This document shows, piece by piece, positions 1,664-51,105 of a stretch of DNA of 51,205 nucleotides. This DNA comes from a virus, in the IMG/VR virus record IMGVR_UViG_3300010403_000009, positions 1 through 51,205 of that record. The stretch is one strand, 5' to 3'. How positions within the stretch are numbered: position 1 is the stretch's first letter; each line of letters opens with the position of its first letter. The translations under genes and the position numbers were made by a program. A model generated the notes under the pieces. The model saw nothing but the letters and a program-made list of their open reading frames with translations. It made no database searches and was not told where the DNA came from.

Positions 1664-1874
1664 GGTGGCGTGGGGCAGCGTCGAGCAGGCCCGGACAATG
1701 AAGCCGCTCCCGCGAGGATACGGGAAGAACCGGAAGTGCCCGTGCGGCTGCAAACAGAAGATCACGCACACGGGCTTCGGTGGTCACGTGGCCCTAACGA
1801 ATGGTTGCGAGCTTTATATCCGGCGCTGGGTGCGCGATGGCTCACAAGTGCGTCGATCTCCGGAGCAGACATGA
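1656..1874 (+). CDS. Small basic CxCxC protein, 72 aa
   Basis: Starts 8 bases before the end of the previous gene and ends overlapping the Thg1-like start. The middle contains K-C-P-C-G-C-K followed by HTGFGGH, a compact possible metal site. Unknown function; placed in the same early operon. Confidence 0.65.
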   Translation: MSEVAWGSVEQARTMKPLPRGYGKNRKCPCGCKQKITHTGFGGHVALTNGCELYIRRWVRDGSQVRRSPEQT

Positions 1875-2680
1875 GCGACGAACTAGGCGACCGCATGAAG
1901 CTGTACGAGATGGCCGAGGCCGGCCGTCGCTTCATGCCGCTGCTGCCAATCCTTGCGCGTGTCGATGGCCGCGCGTTCCATTCATTCACGCGAGGGATGG
2001 AACGCCCCTATAGCGAGGCCATGACCCAGTGCATGATCTACACGGCTGAGAGGCTCGCATTCGAAACTAACGCCTGCATGGCCTACACGCAGAGCGATGA
2101 GATCACGCTCGCGTGGCATTCGCTGGACCCCAAGAGTCAGGTCTGGTTTGACGGCCGCATCTGCAAGATGACTAGCCAACTCGGCGCGCTCGCGACTTTG
2201 CACTTCTATCGGGTGGCTGGCATCCACTTGGGCGAGAAGTACACACAACTTCTGCCGACCTTCGATGCTCGTGTCTGGCAGGTTCCAAACCGCACAGAGG
2301 GGGCGAACGTCTTTCTGTGGCGAGAGTGGGACTGTACTAAGAACAGCCTCACCATGGCCGCCTCAGCACTCTATAGCCACAATGAACTACACGAGGTAAA
2401 TGGCCAGCAGAAGCACGACATGCTGATGGCGAAGGGCGTCAACTGGAACGACTATCCGCCGTCATTCAAGCGCGGAACATTCGTGCAACGACGCCGAGTC
2501 GTTCGGCCATTCACGACGGAAGAGCTGGAGCAGTTGCCACCGAAACATGAGGCTCGCGCGAATCCAGCTCTTACGGTAGAGCGGTGGAAGATTGCGCCTG
2601 TCGCCATGCCGCCGTTCGGCACGGTCACCAATCGCGAAGCGGTGATCTTCGAAGGCGCCGAACCGAAACAAGATAGCTGA
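1871..2680 (+). CDS. Thg1-like 3'-5' polymerase (tRNA-His guanylyltransferase family)
   Basis: This 269-aa protein has the Thg1 family signatures. ARVDGRAFHSFT (D32, G33) and QSDEITL (D76, E77) carry the two metal-binding carboxylates, and a later NVFLWREWDCTKNS...LYSHNEL stretch matches the conserved region of Thg1-like proteins (TLPs). The family adds nucleotides to RNA 5' ends in the reverse, 3'-5' direction; bacterial and archaeal TLPs repair truncated tRNA 5' ends, whereas eukaryotic Thg1 adds G-1 to tRNA-His. All catalytic residues are present, so activity is likely. The start is chosen from the ATGA overlap with the previous stop; the frame stays open further upstream but lies in the shadow of that gene. 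It sits just before xis and int. Confidence 0.88.
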   Translation: MSDELGDRMKLYEMAEAGRRFMPLLPILARVDGRAFHSFTRGMERPYSEAMTQCMIYTAERLAFETNACMAYTQSDEITLAWHSLDPKSQVWFDGRICKMTSQLGALATLHFYRVAGIHLGEKYTQLLPTFDARVWQVPNRTEGANVFLWREWDCTKNSLTMAASALYSHNELHEVNGQQKHDMLMAKGVNWNDYPPSFKRGTFVQRRRVVRPFTTEELEQLPPKHEARANPALTVERWKIAPVAMPPFGTVTNREAVIFEGAEPKQDS

Positions 2681-2687
2681 ACTTCAA

Positions 2688-3062
2688 ATGGCAGAACTCG
2701 CAGGCAAAGACTATTTCACCGTCGAGGAGGCGGCGGTCTACGCTGGTATTTCATACAGTCACTGGCGTGCCAATGTGCAACCTGAGTTCCCACCGGGGCT
2801 GTTCAAGGGCAAACTCCTCTACCGCCGGGCCGATGTGGCGCGCTTCATCGAAAACAACACGACGTGGCCACGATCTATCCTCGAGGAACGTGCTGGTACC
2901 TCAACTGGTCGGAGAACGGGAACCAACGCCGGAAATCGCTCGGGGAGATCAGCGAGCATGAAGCCGACACTCAGCGTCGTGCGAAAGAACTCGAACTCAG
3001 GACAGGAAAACGGATCTTCATCGCCTCACGCGTCTTCGATGAGCACAGGAAGACCTACCTAG
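2688..3062 (+). CDS. xis: Excisionase-like / MerR-type HTH protein
   Basis: Residues 9-58 form a winged helix-turn-helix (YFTVEEAAVYAGIS...LLYRRADVARFIE) of the kind used by AlpA and phage excisionases. It lies directly upstream of integrase 1, as expected for Xis. From about residue 60 the frame runs 199 bases into the integrase gene and becomes Ser/Arg/Gly-rich low complexity, which may be a disordered tail or a frame that stayed open by chance. No clear ribosome site is seen. Confidence 0.7.
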   Translation: MAELAGKDYFTVEEAAVYAGISYSHWRANVQPEFPPGLFKGKLLYRRADVARFIENNTTWPRSILEERAGTSTGRRTGTNAGNRSGRSASMKPTLSVVRKNSNSGQENGSSSPHASSMSTGRPT

Positions 3063-3847
3063 CCTGGCACCGCAGCGAGTTTCCCGACTCGCACTACCGT
3101 GTCGAGCAGATCGCCAGCCAGCACTTCGGCGCATTCGAAGGCAAGCCCCTCTCCCAGATCCAGAACACCGACATCGAGCTCTGGAAGGCAGCACGCGTCC
3201 AGGTGGTGAGCCGCGAGAGCGTCGGCAAGGAGTTCCGCACCCTGAAGGCCCTCTTGCAGAAGGCAGTTGAGTGGGGCGAGATCGAAAAGAACCCGGCAGA
3301 ATATGTCGAAGAGCCGCGATCGCTCGAGTCGGCGCCCATCCACTGGTACACGAAGCCTCAGCTCGCGAAGCTCTATGAGCGCCATCACGGCCAGACGTGG
3401 AAGTTTCTCGCGAATACCGGCCTGCGCCGGACGGAAGCGAAGCAACTGCGAGTCGATCGGGTCGACTTCAAGCGCAAGGTGGTGACGATCGTCTCTACTG
3501 CAGGCGCCCGCACGAAATCGGGGAAATGGCGCGAGATCCCGCTCTCGGACAATGCCATCGCGGCCGCCCAAGCGCTCATTGCGGAGCACGGCAAGACCGG
3601 CTTTGTTCTGCCCCGGATCGCAAGCGAGAGCCTGTCGAGGGCCTTCCTGAAGGACGTAGCGCGGCTGGGGCTGGGCGGAAGTCTCCACAGCCTGCGCCAC
3701 AGCTATGGGGCACATCTCGTCATGGCGGGCGTCCCCTTGCGTTCCCTGCAGGTTCTGATGGGGCATGCGAGCTTCAGAACCACAGAGAGGTACGCCCATG
3801 TGGGCAAGGATCATCTGCGCGCGAAAGCCCGGCGGATCAACCTGTGA
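2864..3847 (+). CDS. int: Tyrosine integrase 1 (with arm-binding domain)
   Basis: 327 aa. The N-terminus (GTCWYLNWSENGNQRRKSLG) resembles the small beta-sheet arm-binding domain of lambda-type integrases, followed by a core-binding domain (about 58-150) and the catalytic domain. All active-site residues are visible: R188 in TGLRRTE, K218 in TKSGK, H275/R278 in SLHSLRHS, H301 in LMGHAS and Y310 in TTERYAHV. It should recombine attP with the host tRNA-Glu gene. The attP core begins 88 bases after its stop, the usual place for a phage integrase. The overlapping upstream gene is the likely excisionase. Confidence 0.93.
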   Translation: MATIYPRGTCWYLNWSENGNQRRKSLGEISEHEADTQRRAKELELRTGKRIFIASRVFDEHRKTYLAWHRSEFPDSHYRVEQIASQHFGAFEGKPLSQIQNTDIELWKAARVQVVSRESVGKEFRTLKALLQKAVEWGEIEKNPAEYVEEPRSLESAPIHWYTKPQLAKLYERHHGQTWKFLANTGLRRTEAKQLRVDRVDFKRKVVTIVSTAGARTKSGKWREIPLSDNAIAAAQALIAEHGKTGFVLPRIASESLSRAFLKDVARLGLGGSLHSLRHSYGAHLVMAGVPLRSLQVLMGHASFRTTERYAHVGKDHLRAKARRINL

Positions 3848-4111: not shown

Positions 4112-4945
4112 GTGAACAACAACGACACGGTTACGGTCAGCCAAATCATCGACCGATACGAGGCGGAATGCCTCCACGAGCTCGCGCTCAGCACCCAACG
4201 CTCCTACCGCCGACACTTCGTCTACCTGCACCGCGCGTTCGGCCACCTTCTGGTGAACGAATTGAAGCCGAGGGACTTCGGTCCGTTTCTTCAGATCCCG
4301 CCCGGGAAGAAGGGCCGCGTCCAGCGAGTGCGGCAGCTCGCCGTACTTTCGGCTGCCTTCACACAGGCCGTCAGCTTCTGGTACAGCATGGAAAGGAATC
4401 CGCTCAGGGATGTGAAGCGGCCGAAGTTCAAGCCGCGCACGCGATACGTTGAGGACTGGGAGTACGACGGTGTGCGGGCGATGGCGGCGCAGCGCGTAAG
4501 ACTGGCGATGGAGATCGCCTACCTGTCCGGCCAGCGCCAGGGTGATGTGATCGGACTGAAGTGGGCGGACATCGACGACCGCATTCACTTCGTTCAGGGG
4601 AAGACCGGAAAACGGATCGGCATGAAGATCGGGCCGAAGCTCGAGGCTGTGCTGGATGAATGCTGGGGATTGCCGAGCGGCGGTAAGGATGGCGGGGCTT
4701 ATGTGATCTCGAGGAAGGTTGGCGGGCGCTATACGAGTGAGGGCTTCAGGGCGCAGTGGCAAAAAACGATCAACAAGTGGGTGCGCTCAGGGCAAACGCG
4801 CTGGAATTTTCATGACCTCAGGGCGAAATGCGTATCCGACTCTGGCTCACTGCAAGAAGCCAGTGACAGGGCCGGTCATCTGGACCAGCAAATGACAAAA
4901 AGGGTCTACGATCGCAATGAACGGCAGGTTGACTCGCTTGCCTGA
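4112..4945 (+). CDS. Tyrosine recombinase 2 (no arm-binding domain)
   Basis: 277 aa from a GTG start; no other start lies upstream in frame. The protein begins straight with a core-binding domain (helical, about 8-100) and lacks the arm-binding domain of integrase 1, as in XerC/D-like or simple integrases. The catalytic set is complete: R142 in LSGQRQGD, K164 in VQGKTGK, H234/R237 in NFHDLRAK, H256 in RAGHLD and Y266 in TKRVYDR. It starts 130 bases after the tRNA-type core, on the opposite side from integrase 1. After integration the two would sit at opposite prophage ends. Its role is unknown: a second specificity, dimer resolution or excision are possible. Confidence 0.88.
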   Translation: MNNNDTVTVSQIIDRYEAECLHELALSTQRSYRRHFVYLHRAFGHLLVNELKPRDFGPFLQIPPGKKGRVQRVRQLAVLSAAFTQAVSFWYSMERNPLRDVKRPKFKPRTRYVEDWEYDGVRAMAAQRVRLAMEIAYLSGQRQGDVIGLKWADIDDRIHFVQGKTGKRIGMKIGPKLEAVLDECWGLPSGGKDGGAYVISRKVGGRYTSEGFRAQWQKTINKWVRSGQTRWNFHDLRAKCVSDSGSLQEASDRAGHLDQQMTKRVYDRNERQVDSLA

Positions 4946-5308: not shown

Positions 5309-5791
5309 CTAAAGCTGTGGGGTGATTTCGGCTATTAACGCGGCGAGTCTGGCGCTGTTCCTGCGGCATTCTCCAACGGCGGCAGCAACTGAATCAGTGA
5401 GTCCATCGCCTGATGCTCCGCTGGCTGGAGGAGTTCCGGGCTGATGCGTGGCTTCATGCACGGAATGACTTGGGGGATCTCGCGCACGGGCTGCTGCGAG
5501 CAGGCGACGAGCGATGCTGAGATCACCAACAGCATCGTCAACCTGATGATTGAGCCCGGCGATGATTTCAGCATTGCGTTTGTCCGTAGCGTTGGCGGTA
5601 TCAATCTGGGCCCGCATGGCGACTCTGGCGGCCTGTTCTGCCTTGGTCTGCACGATGAGCCATGGCGCGCGCTCGTCGGCTCTGCCGGTGGCATAGCGCG
5701 TTTCACCCCACTTGTGGATAGCGAACCAGACCGCGCCGGCTGCTACGACAATGAGCAAGGGTTTCCACGTCAGCCTCAGGAACTCGATCAT
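5309..5791 (-). CDS. Rz: Rz-like i-spanin
   Basis: 160 aa: a short cytoplasmic start, one transmembrane segment (PLLIVVAAGAVWFAIH, about 11-26) and a long periplasmic helical region rich in Ala/Arg/Gln ending with a Cys and a coiled coil. Spanins join the inner and outer membranes and fuse them in the last step of lysis. Another reading frame nested in it encodes the lipoprotein partner, which is diagnostic for the pair. Its start overlaps the stop of the holin candidate. Confidence 0.82.
   Translation of the reverse strand: MIEFLRLTWKPLLIVVAAGAVWFAIHKWGETRYATGRADERAPWLIVQTKAEQAARVAMRAQIDTANATDKRNAEIIAGLNHQVDDAVGDLSIARRLLAAARARDPPSHSVHEATHQPGTPPASGASGDGLTDSVAAAVGECRRNSARLAALIAEITPQL
5335..5574 (-). 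CDS. Rz1: Rz1-like o-spanin lipoprotein, nested in Rz
   Basis: 79 aa in a different frame, wholly inside Rz. A hydrophobic signal (IIRLTMLLVISASLVAC) ends in a lipobox with Cys25, followed by a Pro-rich periplasmic part (REIPQVIP...PPLEN). This is the standard o-spanin pattern. A start at the internal Met (MLLVISA) is also possible. Confidence 0.8.
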   Translation of the reverse strand: MLKSSPGSIIRLTMLLVISASLVACSQQPVREIPQVIPCMKPRISPELLQPAEHQAMDSLIQLLPPLENAAGTAPDSPR

Positions 5792-6102
5792 GGCGGCGTC
5801 ACTACCGTGGAGGAAGTGCTTGCGGTTGTGGTGGTAGTTGACACCGGCGCATCCCACGTGCGGCCGTTGGTGACGTAGCTGTCGAACACGAGCTTCATGA
5901 ATCCGAAGATGGCAAGCACGACGACGCTGGCAAAGCCTGAAGCTTCGAGGCTGCGATCTTCTTTCGGAAGTGCCGTGTACCAGTGGAGCAGAAAGTTCGC
6001 GACCCAGATGGTCCACCACAGACAGCCGAACAGGAACAGACGCGGAAACAGGCGATAGGAATCGATCAGTTCTGCCGCATCGAGCCAGCGCGCCTTGTTC
6101 AA
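5788..6102 (-). CDS. Holin candidate, two membrane spans, 104 aa
   Basis: Two hydrophobic segments, about 22-45 (FLFGCLWWTIWVANFLLHWY) and 58-73 (FASVVVLAIFGFMKLVF), with a Thr/Ser-rich tail. It lies between endolysin and Rz and overlaps both by 4 bases, the normal holin position. Family not recognised; assigned by topology and context. In this family of phages the same type of protein is often left unnamed. Confidence 0.65.
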   Translation of the reverse strand: MNKARWLDAAELIDSYRLFPRLFLFGCLWWTIWVANFLLHWYTALPKEDRSLEASGFASVVVLAIFGFMKLVFDSYVTNGRTWDAPVSTTTTTASTSSTVVTPP

Positions 6103-6440
6103 CCCCGCACTCCATCGGGCGAGACTGAATAGTGGTTAAAGTCTTTTTTCTGGAAATCCCCGCCCCAGCGATACTTCGGACCGAACGCTTTCCACCAGGC
6201 TCCGAGTTCTCGATGACCTGTGTCGTCCGTGATATAGACGCCGTTCGTGAACAGGTTGAGATCGATGGCGAGGCGCTCACAGTGCAGACTTCGAGAGATG
6301 CCTGACCCTGCGGCAGCATTTGCAGCGGCCTGCTCGGGCGAACGGTAGGCATCGCCGAAGGTCACTCCGTAACCCAGCTCTGCGGCCTTCTGAATGAGCC
6401 TTGCTGCAGACTGCGCGAACTCTTCCTGCAGGATACTCAT
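6099..6440 (-). CDS. Endolysin, M15-type L-alanyl-D-glutamate peptidase
   Basis: 113 aa, close to the usual length of T5-type/M15 endolysins. SLHCERLAIDLNLF supplies zinc ligands H53 and D60 in the SxHxxRxAxD signature, and DFNHYS gives the third ligand H103 with D100 nearby as likely catalytic acid. It cuts the peptide stem of peptidoglycan. No signal peptide, so release needs a holin. Next to the holin candidate and spanins. Confidence 0.88.
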   Translation of the reverse strand: MSILQEEFAQSAARLIQKAAELGYGVTFGDAYRSPEQAAANAAAGSGISRSLHCERLAIDLNLFTNGVYITDDTGHRELGAWWKAFGPKYRWGGDFQKKDFNHYSVSPDGVRG

Positions 6441-6679
6441 GGATGTTTCACCGCTGCGTAAATGAGAGCGATAGCCCCCGGAACAGCTCCCGCTATAAAG
6501 CCCCAGACGCCCGCCTGAAACTTCAGCACCGCGATCTCTGCCTTGATGTCGGCGATATCGGCGGTGCTGAGTACGCTGATCTGCCCTTTGACTTCGCTGA
6601 TACCATCGGACAGACGGGTAAGTTCAGCGAGAATCAATCTCCTGTACTCGCCCCAGTCGCCTTCACTTTCCGGAGCCAT
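6437..6679 (-). CDS. Coiled-coil protein with C-terminal membrane anchor (XhlA-like)
   Basis: 80 aa: a heptad-rich helix (about 12-50, LILAELTRLSDGISEVKGQ) followed by a hydrophobic tail (GVWGFIAGAVPGAIALIYAAV). This is the layout of XhlA-type holin-associated proteins. It overlaps the endolysin start by 4 bases and the PAS gene by 17 bases. Probably a lysis accessory protein. Confidence 0.65.
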   Translation of the reverse strand: MAPESEGDWGEYRRLILAELTRLSDGISEVKGQISVLSTADIADIKAEIAVLKFQAGVWGFIAGAVPGAIALIYAAVKHP

Positions 6680-7094
6680 CAGAGATTCTGCGAACGACGG
6701 CAAGAGCGAGAACGCCTTGCGTGGAGACGAGTGGCCCGAGGATGATCTGGACATGAACCGTACGCCCATTGCGATGCTGGCCAGCAAGCGTCTGCGCAAG
6801 ATGCATTGGACGCACCGTTGGATTCGCGAAGTAGCGATCAATATGATTCGCGTGGCGCTCCCTCAAGCTCTCAGGCAGGAGCATATGCACCGGCTGGCCC
6901 AGTAGCAGCGAGCGCGGATAGCCGAACAGCAACTCAATCTGTTCGTTGCAGAGCTGAATCAGTCCCTGCTCGTTGATGACCAGAAGGCCATCGGGCAGCG
7001 AATCGACGAGCTGCTCGAGCATCGCCGGATCGACGACGACGCGATCCGACAGACGCTCGTTCATCTCCTTCAGCTTGTCGATGATCTCAGTCAT
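6663..7094 (-). CDS. PAS-domain protein
   Basis: 143 aa, made almost entirely of one PAS domain (about 20-138) after a short heptad-like helix (EIIDKLKEMNERLSD). PAS hallmarks are clear: SLPDGLLVINEQGLIQLCNEQIELLFGYP, then LLGQPVHMLLPESLRERH, then a G-R-T-V-H-V-Q-I strand and a final strand. PAS domains sense ligands, redox state or protein partners, and no output domain (kinase, GGDEF, HTH) is attached. It lies between two membrane/coiled-coil genes and the endolysin, translated in the same string. It could regulate lysis or interfere with a host sensor kinase; both are guesses. Confidence 0.85.
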   Translation of the reverse strand: MTEIIDKLKEMNERLSDRVVVDPAMLEQLVDSLPDGLLVINEQGLIQLCNEQIELLFGYPRSLLLGQPVHMLLPESLRERHANHIDRYFANPTVRPMHLAQTLAGQHRNGRTVHVQIILGPLVSTQGVLALAVVRRISDGSGK

Positions 7095-7100
7095 TGCCAA

Positions 7101-7301
7101 TCACGACATGCAGTCGAAGGCTTCCGCCTGACAACGCATCAGAAACTGAGTCTCATGCGGACTTTGCGTGTCATCAGGTCGCGCGAGGATGGCATCCATC
7201 TTCACGCGCCTCGGTCCCGTGATCCATCCGGAGACGGATGGATCTTCGAGAGACTTGCGCAGATTCTGACGAATGATAACTGGACCTGTATTTCCACCCA
7301 T
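7101..7301 (-). CDS. Hypothetical 66-aa late protein
   Basis: ATG overlapping the previous stop, with GGAG about 8 bases upstream (a GTG one codon earlier is also possible). Mixed charged protein with no motif I recognise. Part of the run of small genes between tail spike and lysis cassette. Confidence 0.6.
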
Positions 7302-7756
7302 CACTTCTTCTCCTTCGGTTTCATACGTTGCATATTGCCCGTCGCGCCGAACTCGGAGTCGGACGGGAGTTTGTCGCCGTGAATGATATCGAGCGCTTCC
7401 TTATCCATTAGGCGCCGTTCGACAAGCCACATCTGAGTTTTCGTGGCCTTGAACTCATCCATCGCCTGCGCGTGCTGTGAATTCCAGCTCGCTGCTGTTC
7501 GCTCGTGCTCCGCGGTCCACATACGCTGCGTTTGCTCAAGAGCCGACGCGTTGGCATCGGCGCGAATCCACGCCCCAACACCGGCGACTGCGCCGGCGAC
7601 GCCACCGACAAACGCGAAACATAGCGCGATAATCGCCATCGTCTTGCTGCCATGGTCATTGATCTCTGAGCGAGAATTGGCGCCGCCGCCCTCAGACTTC
7701 TGAGACTTGTCCGGCGAATCGTGCCGGCGATCCATGCGCGGACTATCGTCGATCAT
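7301..7756 (-). CDS. Membrane-anchored helical protein, 151 aa
   Basis: A hydrophilic Ser/Asp/Arg-rich N-terminus (about 1-38), one Gly/Ala-rich membrane span ([26 protein letters not shown], about 39-64, given here by its ends) and a long helical part with coiled-coil character. The start is chosen for its 14-base overlap with the previous gene. No family recognised. It sits beside a similar protein upstream. Confidence 0.7.
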
Positions 7757-8225
7757 GCGGAATCTGCTGGAGTTGCTGCTCAATTCGGGTAGTCCGTTCA
7801 TCCTGTTCTTTTTGATGCTCACGGATGCCCGCGATCTGCGTGGCCTGACTCGAGAACTGCGAGGTAATCTGAAGTGACAGGAGCCATGCCGAACCCACCG
7901 CGGGAACCGCGACCCCGAGCACGGCAAGCACGAGATGCCAGCGTTTGATGACACCCTCTTCATCTCCATTGGTCATCTTGGGCGCCATCCGGCGCCCATG
8001 CCGGACGCCACGCTCGTAGGCCCTCTCTTCCTGTTCATATGCTGCATCCGGATCGTGACCCCGCATGCCAACTGTTTTCATTGCAAGGTCGATGGCTGTC
8101 TCGGCCTTTCGAAGAATCTTGTGAGAGAGACTATCTTCGTCCCACTTCGCGAGGATTTCCTCGGGTGCGCGCTCCATTGCGGATATGAATGGCACTTCCT
8201 CGGAACTCTGTGCGCTCGTCGTCAA
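7743..8225 (-). CDS. Membrane-anchored coiled-coil protein, about 160 aa
   Basis: TTG start chosen because AGGAG lies 7 bases upstream; a TTG eight codons earlier lacks such a site. A charged N-terminal half (EEILAKWDEDSLSHKILRK) is followed by one membrane span (LVLAVLGVAVPAVGSAWLL) and a C-terminal coiled coil (IAGIREHQKEQDERTTRIEQ). Same architecture as the next gene, so possibly related. First gene after the tail spike. Confidence 0.7.
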   Translation of the reverse strand: MTTSAQSSEEVPFISAMERAPEEILAKWDEDSLSHKILRKAETAIDLAMKTVGMRGHDPDAAYEQEERAYERGVRHGRRMAPKMTNGDEEGVIKRWHLVLAVLGVAVPAVGSAWLLSLQITSQFSSQATQIAGIREHQKEQDERTTRIEQQLQQIPHDRR

Positions 8226-8250
8226 CTCCGCTCTCCTCTTCGCGCTCAAT

Positions 8251-10446
8251 TCAAAGCGTTCCGTATCCCGTCAGAAACCATGTTGAGCCATCAAACGAGA
8301 CATCCACAAATGCGGCCGTAGCACTGGGAATAGTCTTCAGCCCGCCCACATCGAGCGTAAATGAGCCAAGGCCAGTGCGGACAATGCGGAATTTAGATCC
8401 TGCAACCGCATTGGTCGTGCTAAGTGTTACGGTCCGATTGGCAGTAAGCGTTCCTGCCCAACGCTGGATTTCATAGTCTGAACCCACCGTCAGTGTCTGG
8501 CTGGTATCACCTCGTGATGGTGATGGGCTCTTGAGCTGGTGAAGCCATGCGCTATTGTTGGTGGTGATCACGCCACTGGCGTTCTCCACCGTGCATCCAT
8601 TCGCCGCAGTGGAGGAAGCATTGTAGTACGCGTAGCTGCCGGCAAATACCCCACCTACATGATTTCCCCGACATACGACGTTCTTGGCTCCCGTGCCGAG
8701 CTGTATCCCGTTGCCCTGCGTGCCTTCGGCTGCGCCATCAAAGGCGGCTTCCTTGCCGATTCGACAACCCTCGATACGGAAGTTCGCGCACTTGTCGAGC
8801 ACGATACCCGCGAAGGACCCTGCCACACTGGTGCTGTTCCCTGAGATATTGCAATTGCGGATGAATCCGGTCTTTTCCCGAGCCGGACTCCAGATCGCAG
8901 ACCCGCCATTCAGATCGATACCGATCTGCGCGCAGTTGAAGATCTTCAGATGCTCAATGTTGATGCGCACCCATTCATCGGTTCCGAAGATGCCATGCTC
9001 GAAGCCATTGATGTGCCCGTTGCGAATATCGGCACACCCCGCAGAACATAGAATCCCGAAGCCATTGGCCGTGCCATCAATGGCAAACCCATCGAGCACG
9101 AAATCGCCGAGGTCGGTCTGCACCTGGTAGTCGGAGGGATGGCCGAGGGCTGCGACCACAGCTGCTAGGTACCCGCCGCTTGCGAGCTGGGCGCCGGATA
9201 GGGTGATCGCGGTACCGGAGATGGTGCGGCCCGTGATGTTGTGCAGACGTACGTTACGCTTTACGCCGATCTCATCCGAGCCCACCCACGGGCGATAGAA
9301 CAGGGATTCTCCGGTCGTAACGACGAGTACCGCCGCAGCGGAACGCACATAGAGATTTTCGACGTTGTAATTGTATGCTCCGGCGATCGTGAGCCCCGCA
9401 GAGGTCGTGGTATTGAGATAGCGGATATCAATGTTGCGGAACGTGAGATTGTGCGCGTGAGAAGTCTGGCGCTGATCCCCCGTGCCCGAGGTTGCCCAGC
9501 CAAACTCATAGTCGATGCCATCGCCGACGCTACCGCCGTCAGCATCGATGTTCTCGATCAGAACATTACGCAAGCCTCCGGTGAGCTGGATGAGAAGCCC
9601 GTTGGGATTACCAGTCGAGATAATCTTCAGATTTCTGAGGTAACAGTTTCCCTGCGGAGAGCTGAGCGCGCTGTCATATGTGTTCGGGAAATATTTCCCG
9701 GCACCGCATTCACTTGCGCGGGCACCGATCTGAATGGCAGAGATATTGGTGCCGCTGCCGGAATAGTTGAGCACGATCGTGCCGTTCTCCACGGAGAAAT
9801 CACGGATGCCCATAAGGACACCGGCGAGCACGTCATACGGCGATGAGAGGCTTTTGGTGAGGTTCAGCGTGCATCCCATCAGGTTCAGATGCACGCCATC
9901 CCGGCATGGAATCCAGTCATTGATGTAACAGGTGTCCGTGCCGGTGAGCGGCGGAAGATAGAAGGTCCCCGTCGGGCCTGTTTTGGTGGGGTCGAAGAGT
10001 GCCTGCAAATTGGCAGTGTTAGCCGTCGCGGAACTTGCATCGTTGAGCACAACATATCGCAGCAGGTTCTCCGGACCGCGGGAGCTGTCGATAATCGTGA
10101 CCCCGGTACTATTTTCGGCCTCAGTTTCCGGGTTCAGGATGCCGCCGATTTCCGCCTGCGTGATCACGAAAGGCGATGCAGGGTCGATCGTTAGCGATGG
10201 CGTCAAACCCGAGGGGTCACTCAGGACTATCTTCAGTTCAAAGTTGGCACCCGAGTAGATGGCCGGGAAATAGCCTTCATTGGTAGCCGTGATCGGATTC
10301 GCATGCGGATTTTGCAATAGAAAATCCTGATACGTCACGACAGGCGTGGAAGTCTGCGAGACGTAGGTGGTGCACTTCGCGCCACTCACGGGCTTGCCGT
10401 CCCTGTCCTGCAGAAACAGAAGCGGTTGAGGAATTAATCTCGACAC
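8251..10446 (-). CDS. Tail spike, right-handed beta-helix (pectate-lyase fold)
   Basis: 731 aa from a GTG with GAGGG 6 bases upstream (an ATG overlapping it is out of frame and stops at once). The first about 90 residues (SRLIPQPLLFLQDRDGKPVSG...) form a small particle-binding domain common to many podoviral spikes. Then a long run of Asn/Gly/Ile-rich short strands (NLTFRNIDI, CNISGN, GCRIGKE) reads as a parallel beta-helix, and a C-terminal beta domain (TLTANRTVTLSTTNAVAGSKFRIVR) probably trimerises. Such spikes bind and often cut surface polysaccharide. Substrate not predictable. Confidence 0.85.
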   Translation of the reverse strand: MSRLIPQPLLFLQDRDGKPVSGAKCTTYVSQTSTPVVTYQDFLLQNPHANPITATNEGYFPAIYSGANFELKIVLSDPSGLTPSLTIDPASPFVITQAEIGGILNPETEAENSTGVTIIDSSRGPENLLRYVVLNDASSATANTANLQALFDPTKTGPTGTFYLPPLTGTDTCYINDWIPCRDGVHLNLMGCTLNLTKSLSSPYDVLAGVLMGIRDFSVENGTIVLNYSGSGTNISAIQIGARASECGAGKYFPNTYDSALSSPQGNCYLRNLKIISTGNPNGLLIQLTGGLRNVLIENIDADGGSVGDGIDYEFGWATSGTGDQRQTSHAHNLTFRNIDIRYLNTTTSAGLTIAGAYNYNVENLYVRSAAAVLVVTTGESLFYRPWVGSDEIGVKRNVRLHNITGRTISGTAITLSGAQLASGGYLAAVVAALGHPSDYQVQTDLGDFVLDGFAIDGTANGFGILCSAGCADIRNGHINGFEHGIFGTDEWVRINIEHLKIFNCAQIGIDLNGGSAIWSPAREKTGFIRNCNISGNSTSVAGSFAGIVLDKCANFRIEGCRIGKEAAFDGAAEGTQGNGIQLGTGAKNVVCRGNHVGGVFAGSYAYYNASSTAANGCTVENASGVITTNNSAWLHQLKSPSPSRGDTSQTLTVGSDYEIQRWAGTLTANRTVTLSTTNAVAGSKFRIVRTGLGSFTLDVGGLKTIPSATAAFVDVSFDGSTWFLTGYGTL

Positions 10447-21980: not shown

Positions 21981-22747
21981 TACTCACTCCAGTCGTAATT
22001 GGAGAGATATTTATCCTTGGTGAAGCCGGGAATGGTGCGCTCGAAGCGGGCACATGCATTCTTGGCCTCCTCAGGAAGATTCTCGAATGTCTTCGCCTTG
22101 CTGTTCTGGACCTTCTTCGGTTCGTGTCCCTCCGTGATGTGTTCCTCACGGCGGCTATTCTTGAACTTGTGGGGTACTTCGGCCTGCACACGCTCGGTCA
22201 GCCTGTCGAGAAAGGCCCGTCCCTTGAGACCGGGGTTTTCGCGGGCGATGAGGTCCGAGAGGCCATCGGCTATGGACTTCAGAACAGGGTCTGTCTGATA
22301 CCAGCCGTTCTCGTTGAGCCATGCCTGAGTGGCCGGGGGAATCTGTTCGGCTCTGGGGGGCTCTGCCTGCATCTCGCGAATCTGCCGGTCCTTGAGCGTG
22401 AACGCCTGTCCGTCACCATCGGTGATGGCTTTGGCGCGTTCGGCTTCGAGCTGGGCAATCGCGGCATCGCGTTCGCGGCGCTCTTTGGACACCGTCTTCT
22501 CGTGGAATTCATTGAAGAGGCGGTTGCCTTCCTTGAGCTCCCCGACTTCGCCTTTCAGATTCTCGACCGTTTTCAGGAGGTCGCGATTCTTCGCCTGTAC
22601 GTAGGAGAAGATCTGCTCGCCCCTTTCGACGAACGTCTTCGCATCGGCCCAGCGTTCCGGCGGGCCTTTCCACGCGGCCTGCTCCTGCCAGCCGTGGGCG
22701 CGCGCTTCGGCTTCGTAGTCACGTACTTCGCCTTCATTTGTGGACAT
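21980..22747 (-). CDS. Scaffolding protein
   Basis: 255 aa, highly charged and helical. YEAEARAHGWQEQAAWKGPPERW opens the protein and is followed by a long coiled coil (LLKTVENLKGEVGELKEGNR...). This opening (GWQ/GW-x-P-E-x-W) and the coiled coil are typical of podoviral scaffolds that guide capsid assembly and then leave. Next to the portal and capsid genes. Confidence 0.75.
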   Translation of the reverse strand: MSTNEGEVRDYEAEARAHGWQEQAAWKGPPERWADAKTFVERGEQIFSYVQAKNRDLLKTVENLKGEVGELKEGNRLFNEFHEKTVSKERRERDAAIAQLEAERAKAITDGDGQAFTLKDRQIREMQAEPPRAEQIPPATQAWLNENGWYQTDPVLKSIADGLSDLIARENPGLKGRAFLDRLTERVQAEVPHKFKNSRREEHITEGHEPKKVQNSKAKTFENLPEEAKNACARFERTIPGFTKDKYLSNYDWSE

Positions 22748-23132
22748 GGAATGCCTTCCTGCTTTGCAGATCAGTGAAACTCACGCCTTCTTCGACAATC
22801 GCGGTCACATCGACATCGTTCATCAGCCGGTAGGACCGGCCGTCTTTCCCGGTCACCTGAAGACCACCATATTTCGCAAAGGCCACCCGTTCGCCAGGTT
22901 GCGCGAAGGGACGGGAGAAGCCCTGGGTGGTCGTCTGACCACCGGTCTTGCTGATGTGATCGAGATACGCATCGGGGCCGGAGGCCACGAAGGTCCCGAT
23001 GGACTGCGCCATCTGATGCAGCTCGCCCACGGTTCCGGGAATGATGATGCCGCCGTCGGTCACCTTCTCGATGTCATCCGGCAGGATCAGGACGCGGTCG
23101 CCGCAGGGGTGAATGCCTGACTCGTTCTTCAT
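22734..23132 (-). CDS. GroES-like co-chaperonin
   Basis: 132 aa. CGDRVLILPDDIEKVTDGGIIIP matches the first strands of GroES (xxDRVxVxxxxxExxxxGGIxLP), a loop follows, and then GTFVASGPDA, PGERVAFAKYGG and DVTAIVEEG correspond to the later GroES strands. It is about 35 residues longer than bacterial GroES, with insertions in the mobile-loop and central regions. Phage GroES analogues (T4 gp31 is the classic case) cap GroEL to fold capsid protein; position beside scaffold and portal fits. Overlaps both neighbours. Confidence 0.82.
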   Translation of the reverse strand: MKNESGIHPCGDRVLILPDDIEKVTDGGIIIPGTVGELHQMAQSIGTFVASGPDAYLDHISKTGGQTTTQGFSRPFAQPGERVAFAKYGGLQVTGKDGRSYRLMNDVDVTAIVEEGVSFTDLQSRKAFHVHK

Positions 23133-23391: not shown

Positions 23392-25522
23392 CTGCGATCG
23401 CCTTGATACGTTTGCTGTTGGAGTCGATTCGAGCGGTGATCGCTTCGAACTGCGCGATATACACCTGCGCGTCGTCCTGCATCATTTCGTGCTGCAGTTT
23501 CAGAATATTCGCCTCGTTCACGGCAATATTCGAATCCGCGAGCGCCGCATCGATCTCCATGCGTGAGTGAGCTTCCAGAGTCCGTCTCTGTTCTTCGGCG
23601 GCCTTGAGGGCCAGTTCCGGGTTCTGCGGCGCCGGAATCGTGGGCTGACCCTTGTCATCGCGCGGATAGATTTCCTGTGTGTCGGGAATATCCATCGCTT
23701 CATGAAGACGTCGTTCGACCGCTGCGGGATCGTAGCCGGGGATGGTTGCGGCCCGCTGGGCGAGAAACTGCGCCTTCACCATATTCTCCTGAGAAGAGAA
23801 TGCATTGGGATCGGCGGCCGGCATGATATCGGTCGGATCACCGCTGTAGTCATTCTGGAGAACCGAGAAACGTCCCTCCATCGTCTCGTAGTACTCGACC
23901 GGATTGAGATAAATCCGGTTCAGCGTGTAGAGCTTGCGCAGCTCCTTGCGGAAACTCCGGTACAGACGCTTGAAGATGCCGTTGAACACCTGCAGGCCCT
24001 GTTCGAGCATTGCCTGCATGTTGTAGGCAGGAGTGTTCTGGCCCGGATTGTTGCCGGTCATTGCATCATTGACGGAGGAGACTTTTTCGCCGTACGAGAT
24101 CAGCAATGAGAGCAACTGAAACAGGACTGTCGAAGGCGCAGGAACCGGCAACGGCACGATGGAGTCTCGCAAGGTCTGGCCGGCGACATTGACCCGCTTC
24201 CATTCGCGCGGACGAAACCGCAGTTCACCCCCCTGAAGTCGGGCTCCCTTGCCGATGAAGCCCGAGGCCCCGTTCTGCAGGGTCCCCGAATCGATCAGCT
24301 GGTTGATCAGCGTGTTGACCGAATCGTTGATCGGACCGAGCAAAGCGCCCAGACCCAGATCATAGAATCCTCCATCGGGACTCGGAATGAAGCCGTACTT
24401 GGTGTAACACTCCATCGCCTCGATTCTGAGGACCTGAGGCTCTGCCTCATCAGATTTCTGGAGCTGCGCCATCTGCTGATCGAGCGCCGCCATCTGCGCC
24501 TGGCCGGCCTGCACGATCTGTGCGACCTGATTTGCCGCCGCGACATGCTGGTCAGTTTCCTGACCGGTCGGCGGAGGCAGCGACTGCACGGCTTCCTGCA
24601 ATTGAGCCGCAATGCCCTTCTTCTGGTCGCCGAGCGCCTTGATCTGAAGCGACTGCTGGGTGACCACCTCGCCGAAGCGGTGAACGATCCTCAATACCTT
24701 GCGGGTCGAGCGGTCGACAATGACCACATAGGGCTCGGGATAGGCATCGCCATCGAGATCGAGATAGCAATGCTGCTCGAGCAGCTCTCTTGAGGTGCTC
24801 GAGCTGACCGGAGGCGCCTGCAGGCCCTGCCGTGCATCGGAGAGTTTGGGTGTCTGGATCTGGGGCTGGCCGAGAGCCTTCGTGGAATACAGGCCCGAGA
24901 GCTGCTTTTCCCGGATCTCGCGGTCCGAGAGCTCGAAGACCTCAGTTTTACGCTCGCACTTCTCGAGGGTGCGCGTGTAGTAGTGAACGATCAGGTTCTG
25001 GGGCAGAACGAGCTTCGAGCAGTTGCGTTCGGTCTGCGCATCCCAGTAGGTCTTCTTGAACGCGCAGCCGATGATGGGAACGACGATGAACTTGCGGTCG
25101 GTATCCTCTTCCCAGTCAACATCCTGATCGAGGAGCTGGAAGGACATATGCCTTCCGATTCTTCCGGCACGGGCGGCTTTCTGGCCGTCGGTGTCCTCTC
25201 CCATGACCCGGTATTTCACAAGGTCCGGGGCTTTCACGAGGTTCGGATAGGCGCGCGCGGCAAACTGGAGAGCGGCAATCGTCACCAGCGGAAACTTCAC
25301 ATTCGCCGCATCCGGCCACGGCGTGTTTTTCGGCTCGACCATCTGAAGGGCGAGTTTTATCGCATTGTCGGTGCGCTTCTCCCACTCCTGACGCGACTGC
25401 CTGTCTTCGTCGTAGCCCTTGACGACCTCGCTGCCAATGGCGTTGCTCTGTTCTTCAGACAGCAATGCATCGACGTTGCGCGACGTCTGGATATCGCGCA
25501 GAGGGAGTGAAATGGGGTCCAT
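23351..25522 (-). CDS. Portal protein (P22 gp1-like)
   Basis: 723 aa, the usual size of P22-type portals (725). The ATG shares its first base with the terminase stop. Features: acidic/helical start, WPDAANVKFPLVTIAALQFAARAYP, a KKGIAAQL... coiled region, ALLGPINDSVNTLINQLID (the wing/stem region) and a long Gln/Glu-rich C-terminal helix (barrel). Forms the dodecameric DNA channel at one capsid vertex and docks the terminase and gp4. Confidence 0.9.
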   Translation of the reverse strand: MDPISLPLRDIQTSRNVDALLSEEQSNAIGSEVVKGYDEDRQSRQEWEKRTDNAIKLALQMVEPKNTPWPDAANVKFPLVTIAALQFAARAYPNLVKAPDLVKYRVMGEDTDGQKAARAGRIGRHMSFQLLDQDVDWEEDTDRKFIVVPIIGCAFKKTYWDAQTERNCSKLVLPQNLIVHYYTRTLEKCERKTEVFELSDREIREKQLSGLYSTKALGQPQIQTPKLSDARQGLQAPPVSSSTSRELLEQHCYLDLDGDAYPEPYVVIVDRSTRKVLRIVHRFGEVVTQQSLQIKALGDQKKGIAAQLQEAVQSLPPPTGQETDQHVAAANQVAQIVQAGQAQMAALDQQMAQLQKSDEAEPQVLRIEAMECYTKYGFIPSPDGGFYDLGLGALLGPINDSVNTLINQLIDSGTLQNGASGFIGKGARLQGGELRFRPREWKRVNVAGQTLRDSIVPLPVPAPSTVLFQLLSLLISYGEKVSSVNDAMTGNNPGQNTPAYNMQAMLEQGLQVFNGIFKRLYRSFRKELRKLYTLNRIYLNPVEYYETMEGRFSVLQNDYSGDPTDIMPAADPNAFSSQENMVKAQFLAQRAATIPGYDPAAVERRLHEAMDIPDTQEIYPRDDKGQPTIPAPQNPELALKAAEEQRRTLEAHSRMEIDAALADSNIAVNEANILKLQHEMMQDDAQVYIAQFEAITARIDSNSKRIKAIADDRKSKQPASRAD

Positions 25523-27312
25523 CAATATCCGGTAGTTACACAGCGGCCCTGGGGAACGTGAGCCTCGTAGGCCTCACGGTATTCGTCGTCCTCAATTTCT
25601 TTGTCGGTCTCGGGCTCGACCATCTCTTCGAGCATCAGACCGAGCCAGGCAAAGGCATCGAACTGATCCTTGTAGGCAAACTTCGGGTATTTCAGCAGTT
25701 CCTCTTCGAAGGCCGGATACCACTCAGAGTTCTTGTCGAAGCGCACCTTTCCGGCTCTCATGCGGGCCCGGATGGATTGCCCGCGCTTGTCCTTGTCCTT
25801 GGTCGGCGCCCTGTCATCGATGTTGATGAACTTGCGGGTCTCGGTCATCTTCGTGTTCAGAAACGGACCAATCGCTTTCGAGATGTTCTCGGACTCGACC
25901 CGGAAGATCTCCGGTTCCCAGCGGTCGTGGATCGAAAACATCTCCTCGACGATGCGTTCACCATCGAGGCGCTCGCGCCTGACATCCACGATATTGAGAA
26001 AGCCTTCAGAGTCGAGCCCTCCGACGACCATCGCGGTATAGGCATTCCTTTCGGTTTCCCCGATCGCAAGGTCTGCCCCCGCGTAGTAAGACTTGCGGGT
26101 CTCGAAGTGCATCGGCTCCATCGGCAGGAAGTCCTGCAAACGGAAGTAGGCGGTGGACGGATCAACCGGATCGTTCAGATACTCCGTCCCGTACACATCC
26201 AGCTGCCCGCGCCCGGCATAATCCGCACGCTTGCGGCGCAGGAACTCCGCGGGCCACTGCTCGGGCCAGAGCACCGATGAGAAATCCGGGTTGTGGGCGC
26301 GGTACTTGACCGAGGCCCACGAAGAAGGCTCGGGGTGGTATTCCCGCAGCTCCTCGATCACCGTTCGCTTGTCCTTGGTCGAGGGCATCATCCGGTCGAG
26401 AAGCGAGTCGTAGCCGACGATCGTCCCCACTACCCGGATCTTCCCCGAAGCCCGAAGGATCGGCCGTACCGTGCCGTAGAACCAGCGGCGAAACTTTTCC
26501 CGCCGCGAGTCATTCAGGACCATCTCGTCATCTTCCATGTCATCCGAGACACAGGTATCGGGACGCTTGCGCTCCCACTTGAGACCGCGCATCCGCTGCC
26601 CGGCACCCTTCACGATGACCCGGAACTTCTCCTCATCCCGGAACGAGCCAACGATGTCGGTCTCGGAAGTCTTCAGAAACTCCGCCAGCTTGTAGTCCCG
26701 AACCAGGTCCTCGTTCTCTTCAATCTCCACCCGCAGGTCATGGAGAAAGGCCGCCGCAAGCTCCTCGTTCGAACCCAGCAGCAGCAGATGCCGCATCCGC
26801 CGCGTACACAACCCGTGCAGTACATACGACCCCGTGATCGCGGTTGACTTCGCATGCCCCCGGGGAGCGGCCAGTGCCACCTGTTCGTAATCCGACCCGC
26901 ACAAGGCCCACCATTCCCAGTGAACCGCCGCAATCGGCTTGGGCTCGTCATAGCGTCCCTGCAGATAGACGCTCGTGAACCCCCACACCTCATCCGCAAA
27001 ATCCCAGTCGGCCTGAGACAGAAACGGCAGCGACGGAATAATCCCCCGCGCCTCCCGCTCGAGCCTCCCCACCTCCCTCAGATGCTCCGAAAGCTCATCC
27101 GAAGTCCGCTCTACCGGACGGGGACGGCCCTCGATATCCGCCTGCGCATCGGCGGTGTACCGGGCCCACTCCTCCGGGTGACGCGACTTCCATGCGTAGA
27201 TGACGTCTTCGCTTAACTCACACGCCCGCGCCGCCGCCCGAACACTCCCCTCCTCAATCACCGCCCTCGCCGCCCGGCGCCGGTCCTCTACCGAGTGCTG
27301 AAAATGGGCCAT
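25522..27312 (-). CDS. terL: Terminase large subunit with N-terminal HTH domain
   Basis: 596 aa. ATPase: Walker A-like APRGHAKS (149-156, a deviant form common in this family) and Walker B CVSDDMEDDE (254-263). Nuclease (RNase H fold): D414 in AGADLA, E473 in RVES and D549/D552 in YKDQFDAFAW. The first about 60 residues (RRRAARAVIEEGSVRAAARA..) form a helix-turn-helix like that of small terminase subunits. No separate small-subunit gene is found upstream; an HNH gene is there instead. Translocates DNA into the head and cuts it. Confidence 0.92.
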   Translation of the reverse strand: MAHFQHSVEDRRRAARAVIEEGSVRAAARACELSEDVIYAWKSRHPEEWARYTADAQADIEGRPRPVERTSDELSEHLREVGRLEREARGIIPSLPFLSQADWDFADEVWGFTSVYLQGRYDEPKPIAAVHWEWWALCGSDYEQVALAAPRGHAKSTAITGSYVLHGLCTRRMRHLLLLGSNEELAAAFLHDLRVEIEENEDLVRDYKLAEFLKTSETDIVGSFRDEEKFRVIVKGAGQRMRGLKWERKRPDTCVSDDMEDDEMVLNDSRREKFRRWFYGTVRPILRASGKIRVVGTIVGYDSLLDRMMPSTKDKRTVIEELREYHPEPSSWASVKYRAHNPDFSSVLWPEQWPAEFLRRKRADYAGRGQLDVYGTEYLNDPVDPSTAYFRLQDFLPMEPMHFETRKSYYAGADLAIGETERNAYTAMVVGGLDSEGFLNIVDVRRERLDGERIVEEMFSIHDRWEPEIFRVESENISKAIGPFLNTKMTETRKFINIDDRAPTKDKDKRGQSIRARMRAGKVRFDKNSEWYPAFEEELLKYPKFAYKDQFDAFAWLGLMLEEMVEPETDKEIEDDEYREAYEAHVPQGRCVTTGY

Positions 27313-50382: not shown

Positions 50383-50564
50383 AAAAGCGCAAGCGTAAGT
50401 GTCGTGACTGCAATGGTGTAGGCAAGGTGTCTCTCGCCTCTCGGACGCATGCTGTCATGCCGATGGTCACTTGCCCTCGCTGTGATGGCAGCGGCAAAGA
50501 AGGCGGAAGTCTTCCGAGCCACATATCGCCGGATCGTCTCGCTGACGGCCGGGACTCGCTGTAA
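50379..50564 (+). CDS. DnaJ-type zinc ribbon, 61 aa
   Basis: CRDCNGVGK and CPRCDGSGK are two CxxCxGxG repeats as in the DnaJ zinc domain. Highly basic. Probably protein or RNA binding. No J domain is present. Confidence 0.65.
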   Translation: MKKRKRKCRDCNGVGKVSLASRTHAVMPMVTCPRCDGSGKEGGSLPSHISPDRLADGRDSL

Positions 50565-50580
50565 CCGTGCCTCCGAAGCT

Positions 50581-51105
50581 ATGAACGCGCAACTCGTCTT
50601 CCCCCCTGTCTTGGATGCCTGCTGCGGGCCTCGCATGATGTGGTTCGACAGCCAGGATCGCCGCGCCTTGTTCATCGACAAGCGACAGGAGACTCATCCG
50701 ATGGCCGGTGTCAACGATCCAGGCCGTGCTCCGATAGTCGTAGCGCCAGATATCGTCGCTGACTTTCGCTCGATGCCGTTTCCTGACGAATCGTTCTACC
50801 TGGTGGTGTTCGATCCGCCTCACATCAAGGCCTCGCGCGCAGGCAAGCGCGGCCGCTTCAAGAAGATCTACGGAGTGCTCCCGCACGATTGGCGGGAAAT
50901 GCTTAGCGCTGGCTTCGCGGAGTGCTTCCGCGTGCTGAGGCCTCACGGGATGCTCATCTTCAAATGGTCGGAGCACTGCTACCCACTGAATGACGTGCTG
51001 GCGTTGACGCCGCACAAGCCGCTATTCGGGCATCGCACGACGCGCTCGACGCACTGGTACACCTTCATGAAGGGTTCCGCTCACCCCACGACAGAGAAGC
51101 CATGA
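50581..51105 (+). CDS. SAM-dependent methyltransferase-like protein, 174 aa
   Basis: A Rossmann-type methyltransferase with motif I LDACCGPRMMWFD (residues 11-23) and motif IV FDPPH (77-81), similar to the DPPY of adenine/cytosine N-methylases, then FRVLRPHGMLIFKW. The start at ATG 50581 is preferred; the frame is open upstream within the zinc-ribbon gene. No specificity domain, so it may modify DNA or a small molecule. Its stop overlaps the first gene across the circle junction. Confidence 0.75.
   Translation: MNAQLVFPPVLDACCGPRMMWFDSQDRRALFIDKRQETHPMAGVNDPGRAPIVVAPDIVADFRSMPFPDESFYLVVFDPPHIKASRAGKRGRFKKIYGVLPHDWREMLSAGFAECFRVLRPHGMLIFKWSEHCYPLNDVLALTPHKPLFGHRTTRSTHWYTFMKGSAHPTTEKP

Follow-up and report, generated by a model that had tools for sequence, protein, structure and literature searches.

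A stand-alone PAS protein with a heme-PAS signature encoded in the lysis cassette of an uncultured phage

We analyzed a 51,205-base virus record of IMG/VR (IMGVR_UViG_3300010403_000009; its whole length is referred to below as the window), which encodes two integrases, an ERF recombinase and a protein matching phage large terminases, and we focused on a small gene whose product of 143 amino acids (aa) consists of a single PAS domain. The gene lies within a lysis cassette, and by sequence and predicted fold its product is closest to the heme-PAS domains of FixL, DosP and FG214. We suggest, with moderate confidence, that it is a phage-adapted, stand-alone heme-PAS of this kind, expressed late and acting as a sensor subunit within the lysis module.

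A first-pass annotation, made from the sequence alone, had described a clean PAS domain lacking an output domain, located between membrane/coiled-coil genes and the endolysin gene. Its coordinates were exact and lacked only the strand: the gene runs on the minus strand, from the ATG at 7094 to the end of the stop codon at 6663. The description was confirmed as well, by the domain match and the end of the open reading frame (ORF), and the placement by the gene neighborhood (Table 1). The match to Pfam PAS (PF00989) is far above chance (E = 9.9e-15, 55 bits, where the cut-off is 22.6 bits) and covers profile positions 2-112 of 113. An N-terminal helix (residues 3-17) is followed by the PAS core (about 25-137), and the C-terminus lies just past the last PAS strand, at the point where kinases run on into their output helix. 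No histidine kinase is found C-terminal to the PAS domain, as it is in FixL, the ORF closing after the core. Comparison with two phage relatives, in which second codon positions are 92-98% conserved and third positions 53-55%, with a ratio of nonsynonymous to synonymous substitution rates of 0.052-0.093 (approximate, as synonymous sites are near saturation), established that the ORF is a real gene under strong purifying selection. Neither base composition nor GC content deviates at the gene.

To characterize the domain we searched the Protein Data Bank (PDB) by sequence and by fold. The single window sequence retrieved the FixL heme domains first (E = 4e-13), and a profile of six phage members, described below, retrieved FG214 (1e-23), FixL (1e-21) and DosP (7e-19), the next kind of protein following only at 5e-7. 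PAS_9 was matched by all six members. The AlphaFold model of the six-member family (predicted local distance difference test score 77.6, core blocks mostly 82-92) is that of a PAS fold: the top 50 Foldseek matches in the PDB were all PAS or LOV domains, with target TM-scores up to 0.89, and the first 16 were all heme-PAS domains (FG214, FixL and EcDOS/DosP), with FG214 at their head.

In PAS cluster 3 of PMC10468136, which comprises the FixL/DosP-type heme-PAS domains, heme binding depends mainly on the histidine of helix F. In FixL, His200 holds the heme, Arg220 bonds O2 and Arg206 bonds a propionate (PMC10765370); in FG214, experiments identified His156 as a heme ligand, and His175 or Met172 is on the other side (PMC13060918). 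The corresponding residue of the window protein, His81, lies in a predicted helix (residues 75-90 of the AlphaFold model) and is invariant in all six phage members, in FixL and in 11 bacterial and archaeal relatives. Judging from this signature, the window PAS probably binds heme. Met97 aligns with FG214 Met172 in five of the six members, and His98, two residues off the position of the distal ligand His175 of FG214, is present in the three close phages and is Gly in the distant ones; Met97-His98 may thus supply the distal ligand. Equivalents of FixL Arg206 and Tyr207 are retained in the three close phages. No counterpart was found of the distal Arg220 that bonds heme-bound O2, and the sequence gives no support for FixL-type O2 sensing. 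Given Gln in place of this Arg and the Met-His pair close to the distal side, a switch driven by redox state or by CO/NO appears likelier than FixL-like O2 binding and is our better guess. The earlier idea that the protein could tie lysis timing to redox or energy state has gained support in its sensor part, through the likeness to heme-PAS domains in sequence and fold and the invariant heme-ligand histidine; the link to lysis is suggested by gene order.

A peptide-pattern search revealed two IMG/VR contigs with the PAS protein, G001 (91%) and G002 (83%). DNA shared by the window and G001 is restricted to positions 6150-7094, which hold the PAS, coiled-coil and endolysin genes. Besides positions 6498-7081 (PAS and coiled coil), the window and G002 have in common only a 44-base stretch of another gene; G001 and G002 share a single 661-base stretch, again PAS and coiled coil, so that this gene pair is the DNA homology common to all three. 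Between the window and G001, PAS is also the lysis-region gene with the highest conservation: its identity is 91%, ahead of the endolysin (79%), the coiled coil (71%), the candidate holin (60%) and the small gene preceding PAS (38%). In the window the start codon of the coiled-coil gene lies 17 nucleotides within the PAS gene, and the start of the endolysin gene overlaps the coiled-coil stop codon (ATGA); G001 and G002 show the same two overlaps. In G002 a GH24 lysozyme (PF00959, E = 1e-8) stands behind the pair in place of the M15 endolysin; the pair thus persists across a switch of endolysin type. The swapped genes are found at L003 1784-2203 (GH24) and window 6099-6440 (M15), with the same ATGA overlap. 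The strongest other protein common to the window and G002 is encoded at 50449-51105 (plus strand); it is methyltransferase-like, with a weak PF08241 match, and its G002 homologue is 54% identical.

A wider search, with context-blind DNA patterns of the PAS motif (DG.EFPVEI and KDG.EFPV) and with the PAS of G299, brought the family to six through three further viral contigs with strong PAS matches. In G299 (68.8 kb) a 133-aa PAS (40-41% identity) overlaps the same coiled-coil gene (49%), and an M15 peptidase gene lies about 1.8 kb downstream of the pair; three other phages thus have a homologue of the coiled-coil protein (about 72%, 72% and 49% identical) directly behind PAS. In G301 (73 kb) a 156-aa PAS overlaps a gene for a transmembrane (TM)/coiled-coil protein. 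The PAS of G300 (119 kb), about 142 aa long, is flanked by TM/coiled-coil genes and, as in G301, overlaps such a gene. A long tail-fibre-like gene lies before it and a GH24 lysozyme gene (E = 2e-37) about 2.5 kb after it. All six PAS proteins are single-domain; their identities span 90 to 26%, with 16 invariant positions.

Pattern searches detect exact codon patterns only and therefore undercount. A viral scan with the pattern HKDG..FPV yielded no PAS beyond those already known, and the other matches in the viral scans were weak and in longer ORFs. Of these, one was examined and proved to be a fusion of a response regulator receiver domain and a PAS domain, encoded on a viral contig (L043 9659-10618, plus strand). 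The claim that PAS proteins are rare in phages was supported: tblastn with three family members as queries found no match in 50,697 phage records, and PHROG has no family for the window PAS. BFVD holds predicted PAS structures from uncultured tailed phages, at 8-16% identity. In the open literature that we searched, no PAS protein was described in a lysis cassette, and a search of the six phages for the cytochrome b family PF01292, as a heme membrane partner, was negative.

The first-pass annotation had also proposed that the gene was recently acquired from a bacterial signalling protein. We rejected this proposal. Our bacterial sample comprised 296 genomes of one phylum, plasmids and a peptide scan of 84,980 species genomes; the scan gave no close relative, and the best identities were about 44% in the phylum and about 43% on plasmids, with no match found above about 44%. 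The best bacterial matches lie in long multidomain ORFs. The breadth of the phage family and the normal composition of the gene also speak against recent acquisition; the window PAS belongs to a conserved phage gene family.

In coding-strand order, the genes of the region encode a probable tail fibre, two TM/coiled-coil proteins, the 66-aa protein, PAS, the 80-aa coiled coil and the M15 endolysin, followed by a candidate holin and by Rz-like and Rz1-like spanin candidates (Table 1). The endolysin, candidate holin and spanin genes are contiguous and on the same strand as PAS, which makes the region a lysis cassette; the endolysin was assigned by profile, the spanin through its G001 counterpart and the candidate holin by hydropathy only, one of its segments passing the threshold and the second being judged by eye. 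No promoter or terminator above chance was found within the cassette, and a Pfam search of the probable tail fibre or spike protein gave no match. An identity of the coiled-coil protein with XhlA/hemolysin was considered and rejected, as PF10779 showed no match at E <= 10 in the window, G001 or G002.

Table 1. Features of the PAS gene and its surroundings in the window
Feature	Coordinates	Strand	Basis or remark
Stand-alone PAS protein, 143 aa	6663..7094	minus	ORF, Pfam PAS match, AlphaFold model of six-member phage family
His81 codon (CAC), F-helix histidine	6852..6854	minus	Aligns with proximal heme ligand BjFixL His200, FG214 His156
Met97-His98 codons, FG loop	6801..6806	minus	Met97 aligns with FG214 Met172 (alternative distal ligand)
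80-aa coiled-coil protein, one C-terminal TM helix, proposed PAS partner	6437..6679	minus	Homologues directly after PAS in three other phages
Endolysin, M15 peptidase family	6099..6440	minus	PF13539 E = 9e-7; PHROG endolysin E = 1.7e-10
Candidate holin, 104 aa, two hydrophobic segments	5788..6102	minus	PHROG 10198, function unknown
Rz-like i-spanin candidate	5309..5791	minus	Single N-terminal TM; G001 counterpart matches Rz-like spanin PHROGs
Rz1-like lipoprotein candidate, inside Rz gene	5335..5574	minus	Lipobox LVAC; PHROG 456 Rz-like E = 0.036, weak
66-aa small gene immediately before PAS	7101..7301	minus	G001 counterpart in same place, 38% identity
TM plus coiled-coil protein	7301..7735	minus	Weak G002 homologue, 30%
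TM plus coiled-coil protein	7743..8249	minus	Upstream of PAS
Large protein adjoining lysis region, probable tail fibre/spike	8251..10446	minus	Inferred from size, position and sequence character

We propose the following course of events. PAS, the C-terminally anchored coiled coil and the endolysin would be translated together from their overlapping genes, the overlaps themselves being observed. PAS would bind heme b via His81, as homology and the model suggest, and the redox or ligand state of the heme might then alter how PAS dimerizes or how tightly it holds the cytoplasmic coiled coil of its putative partner. FG214 switches its dimerization upon reduction, which releases the effector and frees a dimer interface (PMC13060918). 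The coiled-coil partner, in turn, may speed or delay membrane lysis, so that lysis would respond to the respiratory state of the host. Lysis timing is a phage's main life-history trait, and few signals are known to alter it: superinfection, collapse of the membrane potential, and quorum signals acting upstream. Since holin triggering responds to loss of membrane energy, the respiratory state would be a sensible input for a lysis regulator. Carbonyl cyanide m-chlorophenylhydrazone (CCCP) is used to trigger holins (PMC12642591). A bolder extension, that heme-PAS and anchored coiled coil form a mobile two-gene cassette which makes lysis redox- or gas-responsive in uncultured tailed phages, is possible and is put forward only tentatively. 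If true, the cassette would represent a hitherto undescribed kind of lysis regulator, gated by a sensor: a heme cofactor within the lysis operon would link respiration or redox state directly to lysis, and a heme-PAS would work with no covalently attached output, signalling to a separate membrane protein. Such a system would be readily testable, comprising one histidine, one partner and one cassette amenable to expression in a laboratory strain.

Several observations weigh against a heme-based lysis sensor. At the position of the FixL distal Arg220, the three close phages have Gln101 and the distant ones different residues, and the Arg206 equivalent is kept in three phages only, so the pocket is not FixL-like throughout; a helix-F histidine could also persist in proteins that have lost heme. 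The coiled-coil partner matched no known lysis family (XhlA, Pfam and PHROG were all negative). No endolysin was recognised in the vicinity of the G301 gene, and the order is reversed in G300, where PAS comes after the coiled-coil gene whose product has a C-terminal TM segment. The family comprises only six genomes, each from an uncultured phage and perhaps incomplete, and for the PAS gene three of the six are closely related.

The variation of the pocket bears on the strongest of the alternatives, by which PAS is a heme-free adapter that dimerizes or scaffolds the membrane coiled-coil lysis proteins and senses neither gas nor redox state. PAS domains commonly dimerize, the gene is tightly coupled to that of the coiled coil, and pocket residues other than His81 differ among the six members; a scaffold, however, would not need His81, which is among the few invariant residues, and the closest structures all bind heme. 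We consider such an adapter unlikely. Another alternative builds on the decoy raised in the first-pass annotation: PAS would bind or heterodimerize with host PAS kinases, whether FixL-like or diguanylate cyclases, and dampen host signalling late in infection. Host FixL-type proteins are common in bacteria, and the domain does stop directly after its core, with no output helix. Yet its identity to bacterial PAS domains is at most about 44%, compared with 84-90% to the two close phages, it is co-conserved with a phage membrane gene rather than with anything of the host, and it resides in a lysis operon, whereas the host interference genes of phages are usually early. We found no positive evidence for a decoy, which is less parsimonious than a partnership with a co-translated membrane protein and, in our view, improbable. 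Equally improbable is a moron that benefits the lysogen, for instance through redox signalling or heme storage, and plays no part in lysis: the integrases make the phage probably temperate and PAS is unusual phage cargo, but the gene has no promoter or terminator of its own above chance and no GC deviation, start and stop overlaps tie it to lysis genes, and the same PAS/coiled-coil pair precedes different endolysins.

Other genes of the window deserve mention. Two different tyrosine integrases (PF00589) are encoded adjacently and in the same direction (2864-3847 and 4112-4945, plus strand); no tRNA gene was found in the window. A phage-encoded Thg1 tRNA-His guanylyltransferase is found at 1670-2680 (plus strand; PF04446, E = 2e-23), its true start probably further in than listed. 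A GroES-like co-chaperonin, Cpn10, is encoded amid structural genes (22734-23132, minus strand; PF00166, E = 5e-10). The terminase large subunit (25522-27312, minus strand) carries an N-terminal helix-turn-helix stretch (HTH_Tnp_1, E = 0.0099, which falls short of the curated cut-off); this might be a fused DNA-binding part resembling a small terminase.

Of the known systems, antiholins and other lysis regulators (T4 RI/RIII, lambda S107 and N4 gp62) resemble the window PAS in being small proteins that are encoded beside lysis genes and tune lysis time to a signal. To our knowledge none of them has a PAS domain or a cofactor site, and we do not claim that the window PAS is a member of this group. 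VqmA of vibriophage VP882 is likewise a phage-encoded PAS receptor that feeds a lysis decision; it is a DNA-binding transcription factor that responds to the autoinducer DPO and targets the switch between lysis and lysogeny (PMC12802170; PMC8284805), whereas the PAS protein described here has no DNA-binding domain and its gene resides in the lysis operon. The FixL and DosP heme-PAS oxygen sensors are second-best in sequence and fold, and their helix-F histidine is kept; the phage protein differs in lacking a kinase or phosphodiesterase output and in having Gln101 in place of the distal Arg220 (Arg97 in DosP). The best sequence-profile and fold match is FG214, the one-component switch of Fimbriimonas ginsengisoli (PDB 10JX/10JY; PMC13060918), which shares with the phage PAS the position of the proximal histidine, a Met at the alternative distal-ligand position in most phage members, and the strand at which the domain ends. 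The position of its distal His175 is Ala in the phage PAS, and FG214 is fused to a helix-turn-helix DNA-binding domain, whereas the phage PAS is a single-domain protein encoded beside a membrane coiled-coil gene.
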